Below are positions 5,218-5,449 of a stretch of DNA of 64,000 bases, in pieces. Below the pieces are notes generated by a model. That model had not been told where the DNA came from. It made no database searches and worked only from the letters and a program-made list of their open reading frames with translations. Where the stretch lies: positions 806,001-870,000 of the forward strand of contig NZ_JARGNB010000002.1 in NCBI RefSeq assembly GCF_030167915.1, read 5' to 3'. This stretch comes from Aquabacterium humicola. GTDB lineage: Bacteria > Pseudomonadota > Gammaproteobacteria > Burkholderiales > Burkholderiaceae_C. Positions within the stretch are counted from its first letter, which is position 1. Every line of letters begins with the position of its first letter. A program made the position numbers and the translations under genes.

Positions 5218-5449
5218 TTACAGGTTGTCCAGATACGTGCGCAGCTTGTGGCTTCGCCGCAGGCTGTGTCGCCGCTACGCGGCGGCTCGCTTGCGCGAGC
5301 CACGCATCAGGCCAACCTTACAGGTTGTCCAGATACGTGCGCAGCTTGTGGCTTCGCCGCAGGCTGTGTCGCCGCTACGCGGCGGCTCGCTTGCGCGAGC
5401 CACGCATCAGGCCAACCTTACAGGTTGTCCAGATACGTGCGCAGCTTGT
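5218..5449 (-). repeat. 100-bp perfect tandem repeat carrying the rpoD 3' end (2.3 copies)
   Basis: Unit A is 5218-5317 and unit B is 5318-5417. They are identical at every base. A third, partial copy (5418-5449) is the genuine end of rpoD. Each unit, read on the minus strand, has a 68-bp insert followed by 32 bp that repeat the last ten rpoD codons plus part of the preceding one and the TAA stop. The insert holds hairpins GGCTCGC-GCAA-GCGAGCC and CGCCGC-GTA-GCGGCG. The layout resembles an element flanked by att-like duplications of a gene end, or slippage expansion after such an event. It is not a CRISPR: only two units, with no variable spacers. Confidence 0.95.

Follow-up and report, generated by a model that had tools for sequence, protein, structure and literature searches.

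The DNA analyzed here (the window) is a stretch of 64,000 nucleotides of Aquabacterium humicola (contig NZ_JARGNB010000002.1, positions 806,001 to 870,000), in which rpoD, the gene of an RNA polymerase sigma factor, lies on the minus strand and is directly followed by two identical 100-bp units and a third 32-bp copy of the gene end (Table 1). The gene was identified by NCBIfam NF004208 (914 bits versus a cut-off of 555), and its product ends in KLRTYLDNL. Each unit consists of ACAAG..CTGTAA, that is the last ten codons after ..GA plus the stop codon, followed by a non-coding insert. Tandem Repeats Finder reported a period of 100 with 2.3 copies, 100% matches and 0% indels at window positions 5217-5449, and an exact-repeat search returned identical 100-mers twice and identical 33-mers three times with a spacing of 100. 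Both results bear out the first-pass annotation, which had described a perfect 100-bp tandem repeat regenerating the rpoD end twice; its division of each unit into a 68-bp insert and the 32-bp rpoD terminus including TAA was likewise seen in the sequence.

A 67-mer of the insert was used as query against the own 7.39-Mb genome and gave good matches at these two places only, the next of the 38 matches having an E value of 0.23. The architecture of the array is not an assembly error, a concern voiced in the first-pass annotation, since it recurs in 27 of 399 genomes of the family, including five exact 100-bp units in the one-contig genome G307; the number of units in the window itself is provisional.

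Fold of the units and co-variation of their arms

The RNA fold of the array region was better than that of 200/200 dinucleotide shuffles (z -4.88). In a circularly permuted alignment of 23 units we recognized four hairpins per unit, A to D. Hairpin A pairs the tail end and the stop codon with the start of the insert, hairpins B and C lie in the middle of the insert, and hairpin D pairs the end of the insert with the start of its own unit's tail, while in linear arrays it is closed by the next copy.

Pairing was found in 85.4% of the 834 scored cells of this alignment; helix A was paired in 89.0% and helix D in 93.8% of cells, B and C being less regular. Changes on both sides of a pair occurred in 57 cells, compared to 19.7 (sd 3.2) in shuffles that leave the relatedness of the units in place (0/500 as high) and to 7-16 with a slid partner. 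An independent alignment of 42 units displayed exchanges in helix D of G-C (29) to T-A (8) and of C-G (32) to G-C (8). The two outer hairpins, those joining the insert with the rpoD end, show compensatory changes.

We also compared the folding of each insert end with the start of its own unit and with the next copy. Among 54 units, 28 were informative, and in 23 of these the insert end folded better with its own unit's start (20 versus 2 at a gain above 1 kcal/mol), counts that include related, hence non-independent, arrays such as L109 and L134. The behavior of the unit is thus that of a circle or head-to-tail repeat inserted whole. The apical loops were GNA in 36 of the 41 parsed. No general preference for GNA was found when perfect 7-bp hairpins with 3-base loops were surveyed over 464 kb of the A. 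humicola genome and 400 kb of G307. No Rfam family reached its gathering score for the array region (best 21.2 bits versus 35), which removed a known structured RNA from the candidates.

Distribution among relatives

The covariance model R1, built on the 23 units, was searched in the 399 family genomes, belonging to 141 genera, and yielded 38 matches in 27 genomes of 19 genera, the other 372 genomes having none. All but one of the matches (37/38) adjoin the 3' end of rpoD, as checked against the places of an rpoD-tail pattern, with three read as sequence; decayed single units are among them (e.g. G036 and G012). Further arrays in other genera appeared among the matches listed by a pattern search of the same family sample.

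Within the genus, 21 genomes were searched and their rpoD tails read. One 99-bp unit is present in G006 and in G011, one 118-bp unit in G004 and several 121-bp units, over two contigs, in G019, and several other members have a single rpoD end. Arrays comprise one to at least five units, G307 carrying five of exactly 100 bp with few differences on one contig. Copy number downstream of rpoD thus varies from a single end to five units, and the alternative named at first pass, that the segment is ordinary conserved sequence, did not hold. The G019 array (L041 10,900-12,851; L042 1-240) is split over its two contigs by an insertion with inverted ends.

A gapped-pattern scan of the GTDB species collection returned 40 stretches. 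The genera named were Pelomonas, Roseateles, Rubrivivax, Aquabacterium, Caldimonas, Methylibium, Ideonella, Piscinibacter, Paucibacter and Mitsuaria, several of which are Sphaerotilaceae in the NCBI taxonomy; the remaining titles read only Burkholderiaceae, Comamonadaceae, Burkholderiales, Betaproteobacteria, Pseudomonadota or uncultured. From 111 distinct rpoD tails we parsed 43 arrays with 54 units, two of them short (64 and 79 bp). Unlike units were found stacked in L126 (122, 107 and 106 bp), L138 (105 and 110 bp) and L140 from G117 (100 and 102 bp).

Origin of the later tail copies

The later tail copies differ from the in-frame copy in 40 of 54 cases. Codon differences amounted to 112 synonymous versus 44 non-synonymous (112/156), where unconstrained, neutral change is expected to give a synonymous share of 24-30%, and 17 later copies differ by synonymous changes only, 13 of them by four or more bases. 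A non-coding copy cannot gain such a pattern, therefore these copies were coding when they diverged. Whole units thus arrive with their own gene end and come to lie on the gene side of the resident end, which is pushed downstream. The distal copy is nearer than the in-frame copy to the nearest array-free relative in L132, L137 and L087 (0.97, 0.94 and 0.94 versus 0.84, 0.78 and 0.81, respectively); other arrays are undecided, or opposite as in L050.

Moreover, the divergence of the 32-bp tail from the nearest array-free neighbour was 0.161 per site in array genomes versus 0.124 in array-free pairs (p 0.0015; 34 array and 30 array-free genomes, 7 remnant genomes dropped), the array-free set being partly chosen for unusual tails, a bias that opposes the observed difference. 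In the windows upstream of -30 the divergence of array genomes was not raised, and a second comparison gave a similar result. In the arrays read, the unit junction consists of G or C followed by ACAAG.

As a separate observation, the arginine codon of the KLR motif is AGG or AGA in 21 of 102 rpoD tails, a set partly chosen for these codons, which is commoner than in the upstream rpoD stretch (147 of 2,972 arginine codons); the AGG/AGA codons of the tails are perhaps scars of earlier units.

Units at a second gene, rplS

The 38th match of the covariance model, in G222, is at the end of a gene other than rpoD. A DNA search of 319 genomes matched 11. Six of the loci were read, four lying at rplS besides G222 and two being unrelated; the places in G032 are its rpoD array, and the loci of G041, G141 and G195 were left unread. 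Tail-carrying units at rplS number two in G292, one in G115 and one in G258, G250 having the last hairpin only. The G115 fragment was assigned to the ribosomal protein L19, the product of rplS, by TIGR01024 (124 bits, cut-off 90.7).

The rplS units repeat the tail ..AAAACTCGCCTGA and have arms complementary to that tail. The arms thus match rplS, and yet the rplS units resemble the rpoD units in their apical CGCCGCAGGC and in hairpin order; the comparison suggests that the unit plan adapts its arms to the gene and is not tied to rpoD alone.

Searches for further target genes and for enzymes

Tail duplications 3' of 5,910 open reading frame (ORF) ends in 1.03 Mb displayed no general excess (at score 17, 48 versus 76 in the control). 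At scores of at least 22 the counts were 10 versus 2; among these high scorers were only rpoD arrays, dispersed repeats of G307 and, in L281, a 28-bp minisatellite. When 5,690 ORF ends were scanned with a fold-back variant, the count was 59 versus 33 in the control, and the excess consisted, judging from the entries listed, of rpoD arrays. The hairpin-D motif occurred elsewhere in 20 genomes with counts like those of a reversed control; its three exact matches were only at rpoD, and one site with a single mismatch lies elsewhere in G004. No autonomous version of kilobase scale was found, paired rpoD ends being at most 125 bp apart among the matches listed.

Two other repeats emerged from this screen. 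The minisatellite of L281, in the A. humicola genome (G000), is on the minus strand near base 12,773 from the strand start; it has a period of ~28 bp, repeats the last codons and the stop of an ORF and, unlike the rpoD units, has no long insert. G307 contains a GC-rich palindromic intergenic repeat of 77-79 bp, GGCCCGGCGCCCGGCCGCCCG..CCCCGGGGGC, in dispersed tandem arrays of two to six copies per site (L261, 17,100-17,400 region; L263, 4,520-4,760; L267, 2,970-3,440), a separate REP-like family.

Among candidate enzymes, the integron integrase IntI was over the cut-off in 12 of 18 array genomes examined. It was present in 14/18 array genomes versus 73/110 of the others listed with the tail motif (p 0.42), so that no association was seen. 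The Y1 (RAYT) transposase, PF01797, was found in 10 of the 18 array genomes and was absent from G000, G006, G307, G148, G211, G350, G117 and G348. With this transposase missing in 8/18 and 37/38 model matches at one gene, membership in the REP/RAYT group was not supported, nor was the first-pass suggestion of a REP-like element. Integron integrase is very common in the family sample as a whole (TIGR02249 at E 1e-60 in 182/399 genomes, 169 over the cut-off).

Features of the locus and its surroundings

Table 1. Coordinates of the rpoD 3' array and neighbouring features in the window
Feature	Positions	Strand	Basis
rpoD coding sequence, 757 aa, RNA polymerase sigma factor RpoD	5418..7691	-	ORF; NF004208
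First tail copy, 32 bp, in-frame and coding, part of unit 1	5418..5449	-	Repeat search, sequence
Unit 1 insert, 68 bp	5350..5417	-	Repeat search, sequence
Second 32-bp tail copy with stop codon, starts unit 2	5318..5349	-	Repeat search, sequence
Unit 2 insert, 68 bp	5250..5317	-	Repeat search, sequence
Third (distal) 32-bp tail copy; the same position in relatives holds the displaced resident end	5218..5249	-	Sequence; tail comparison
Hairpin A, unit 1: rpoD tail end and stop with insert start	5401..5439	-	Fold; pair counts, 23 aligned units; sequence
Hairpin B, unit 1	5385..5400	-	Fold, sequence; pairing less conserved across units
Hairpin C, unit 1, triloop GTA	5371..5383	-	Fold, pair counts, sequence
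Hairpin D: end of insert 1, apical GGC-GAA-GCC, start of next tail; unit junction between 5350 and 5349	5340..5368	-	Own-versus-next folding, pair counts, sequence
Hairpin A, unit 2	5301..5339	-	Identical to unit 1
Hairpin B, unit 2	5285..5300	-	Sequence
Hairpin C, unit 2	5271..5283	-	Sequence
Hairpin D, end of unit 2, 3' arm in distal tail copy	5240..5268	-	Sequence
Inverted repeat 3' of the array, without a T run; candidate native terminator of rpoD	5183..5200	-	Sequence

The gene 3' of rpoD (4140-5180, minus strand) resembles an adenylate cyclase with an FHA domain by weak matches below the cut-off, and such a neighbour follows rpoD in many relatives too. Elsewhere in the same genome, G000:C2:20560-20659 (L002, L049) has an 89% match over 100 bp to the coding end of rpoD, perhaps belonging to a second rpoD-like gene; the covariance model gave no array match there.

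A mobile cassette as proposed explanation, and its rivals

Judging from the comparison of sequences, there is about an even chance that the unit is a mobile palindromic cassette that carries a gene end and is moved by a recombinase encoded elsewhere. We favor this reading because of the recurrence of the units, their variable number, the stacks of unlike units, the former coding status of the displaced tails and the co-variation of insert and tail. The cassette is a non-coding DNA of ~100 bp formed by a copy of the last 32 bp of rpoD and the insert, whose outer parts are the inverted complement of the tail with two further small hairpins between them. It would enter just upstream of the resident tail, between the G and the ACAAG of ..GAC AAG.., giving rpoD its own last ten codons and stop and moving the resident tail downstream; unlike units are stacked on the gene-proximal side. 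The free form may be circular or be excised from a head-to-tail array, and it would be joined to the gene at a few bases common to both (ACAA..) by a recombinase acting in trans. Identical neighbouring units may be a later tandem amplification; for the window's own history, amplification of one unit is the simplest local account, because its copies are identical. At first pass, a miniature mobile element with rpoD as its target had been suggested and the duplicated gene end had been likened to site-specific integration; both ideas fit the comparative data, namely the variable copy number, the unlike stacks and the distal ends that are displaced former coding ends.

A bolder version, which we advance only tentatively, is that there is a class of palindromic DNAs of ~80-120 bases whose arms copy the 3' end of an essential gene, the coding sequence of the target thus serving as recognition arm. 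Such DNAs would pass between species as small circles, join the 3' ends of rpoD or rplS harmlessly, rewrite the last codons and stack, and a recombinase, perhaps acting on folded single strands, would read the common apical hairpin (G-S-C, GNA loop, G-S-C).

Several results weigh against the cassette. No recombinase, free circle or carrier was seen: an exact rpoD-end pattern had 0 matches in IMG/VR, and neither the 8 records of a phage collection (E up to 10) nor the 50 plasmid records covered 80% of the query; the best plasmid match, ~30% of the query, was rpoD coding sequence where annotated among the 20 of 50 records listed. The next copy pairs better than the own start in 5 of the 28 informative units, the shuffles for co-variation retain the relatedness of the units, and the divergence comparison has the partly chosen array-free set described above. 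In that comparison the -30..0 window was somewhat raised (0.131 versus 0.100, p 0.02), so that the left boundary is perhaps inexact in some cases. Arrays whose first and last tails are identical, as in the window, carry no displacement signal. Finally, unit and host rpoD distances are correlated (Mantel r 0.23, p 0.006), therefore vertical descent explains part of the distribution.

The main rival dispenses with a dedicated recombinase: DNA of a relative would be taken up and recombine in the body of rpoD and, by short homology, in a tail copy (homology-facilitated illegitimate recombination), with unequal exchange afterwards. One report (PMC3240628) describes recombination of this kind in natural transformation and, with low efficiency, in conjugation; rpoD is 90-97% identical between hosts, each unit is flanked by tails, and both the weak correlation of unit and host distances and the slightly raised -30..0 window would suit it. 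However, import of a stretch of rpoD should have raised the divergence upstream of -30 bp, and no such rise was found; the arrays read share one junction before ACAAG, and unlike stacked units keep full, unmixed arms. We consider this explanation less likely than the cassette, yet it is a serious alternative and the strongest of the competitors.

Snap-back replication or template switching at short quasi-palindromes could have produced the order tail, inverted tail, tail in place, as a tiny tandem inversion duplication, with exchange of ends later. Tandem inversion duplication is a described process. Apart from hairpins B and C, the insert reads as the tail's reverse complement divided in two, with a small hairpin at either turning point (CCTGTAAGG and GGCGAAGCC); the process would also account for rplS arms that match rplS and may be how the arms first arose. 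It does not produce hairpins B and C, found at the same position in the rpoD units and the longer rplS units, and the three tails should come out identical, whereas unlike synonymous tails occur in many arrays; as a full account it appears quite improbable.

Slippage, also proposed at first pass, would here mean plain tandem duplication with vertical inheritance and is less probable again. The identical units of the window, the five of G307 with few differences and the Mantel correlation are in its favor, and slippage or unequal exchange may well explain the identical units of these two arrays. As a general origin it is already contradicted by the unlike units within single arrays and by the synonymous-only divergence of non-coding copies: the first and last tails are often different synonymous versions, and the tail belongs to the unit instead of being an exact copy of the terminus.

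A cis-acting RNA structure at the end of the rpoD mRNA, serving protection, processing or termination and kept by selection and not by mobility, would agree with the strong fold and the compensatory changes. In a strand test of RNA against DNA, helix A has more G-T than A-C mismatches (26 to 10, p 0.011), as expected of RNA in the rpoD sense, but the excess is absent from helix D (7 to 10). With no model match in 372 of the 399 family genomes, no Rfam family at the gathering score and tail replacement left unexplained, we hold this reading to be very improbable. An integron-type (IntI/attC) or RAYT/REP-type element is hardly credible, for although IntI is common in the family and single-strand hairpins would be suitable substrates, no association of IntI with the arrays was seen, the crossover has no GTT triplet and the Y1 transposase is missing from 8 of 18 array genomes.

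If the cassette reading is true, selfish DNA of only ~100 bp, far under the size range in which integrative elements are usually sought, replaces the final codons and stop of an essential gene again and again, and the recognition arms of a mobile DNA co-evolve with a housekeeping gene. It would explain the odd synonymous codons at the rpoD end, and would mean that horizontal exchange can affect the rpoD ends on which phylogenies draw. A trans-acting recombinase could also be sought in concrete terms, as array-bearing, array-free and mosaic species are listed, many of them harmless and culturable; harmless array-bearing strains include Rubrivivax benzoatilyticus JA2, Rubrivivax gelatinosus DSM 1709 and Caldimonas manganoxidans.

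Comparison with known systems

Site-specific integrative elements such as the tRNA-, tmRNA- and guaA-type islands and CIMEs insert at the 3' end of their target gene, which they restore. As in these islands, in the proposed cassettes the incoming element supplies the gene end, the resident end is displaced, here as the synonymous-only distal ends, and stacking takes place on the gene side; unlike the islands, the rpoD cassettes are ~100 bp, non-coding and without an integrase in the element. No own or linked recombinase gene was found, the insert being 68 bp and non-coding and no kilobase-scale pair of rpoD ends appearing among the matches listed. Integron cassettes are recombined at attC sites, which have a GTTRRRY core at the crossover. 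They share with the rpoD units a hairpin completed across the junction with the next unit and gene-proximal accretion, whereas the rpoD units have no such core at the junction, no attI, a housekeeping target and no observed association with IntI. CRISPR arrays are alike in appearance by the leader-proximal growth of repeat and spacer, but the rpoD tail arrives with the unit and is not duplicated from the resident copy. The 32-bp repeat is also not the duplicated target of a miniature inverted-repeat transposable element, as it can differ from the resident copy, no systematic search for a parent transposon having been made.

Small palindromic mobile repeats, namely REP/BIME, RPE of Rickettsia, RUP and Correia/NEMIS (PMC2229807), resemble the rpoD units in being ~100 bp, palindromic and without a gene of their own, RPE being described also within coding sequence (PMC2229807). 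In that account such repeats are dispersed over many loci (PMC2229807), while the present units have 37 of their 38 matches at a single gene and, unlike those families, arms that pair with the coding end of the very gene they adjoin. Tandem inversion duplications, as far as they are described, have the same layout of tail, inverted tail and tail, and differ from the rpoD units, which have extra conserved hairpins, unlike copies and a spread across genera. No description of units at the end of rpoD or rplS was found in open-licence PMC full text, which does not show their absence from print. Since the dispersed copies that define the small palindromic repeats and the own recombinase that defines the gene-end integrative elements are both lacking, we file the rpoD units as a variant between these two kinds.
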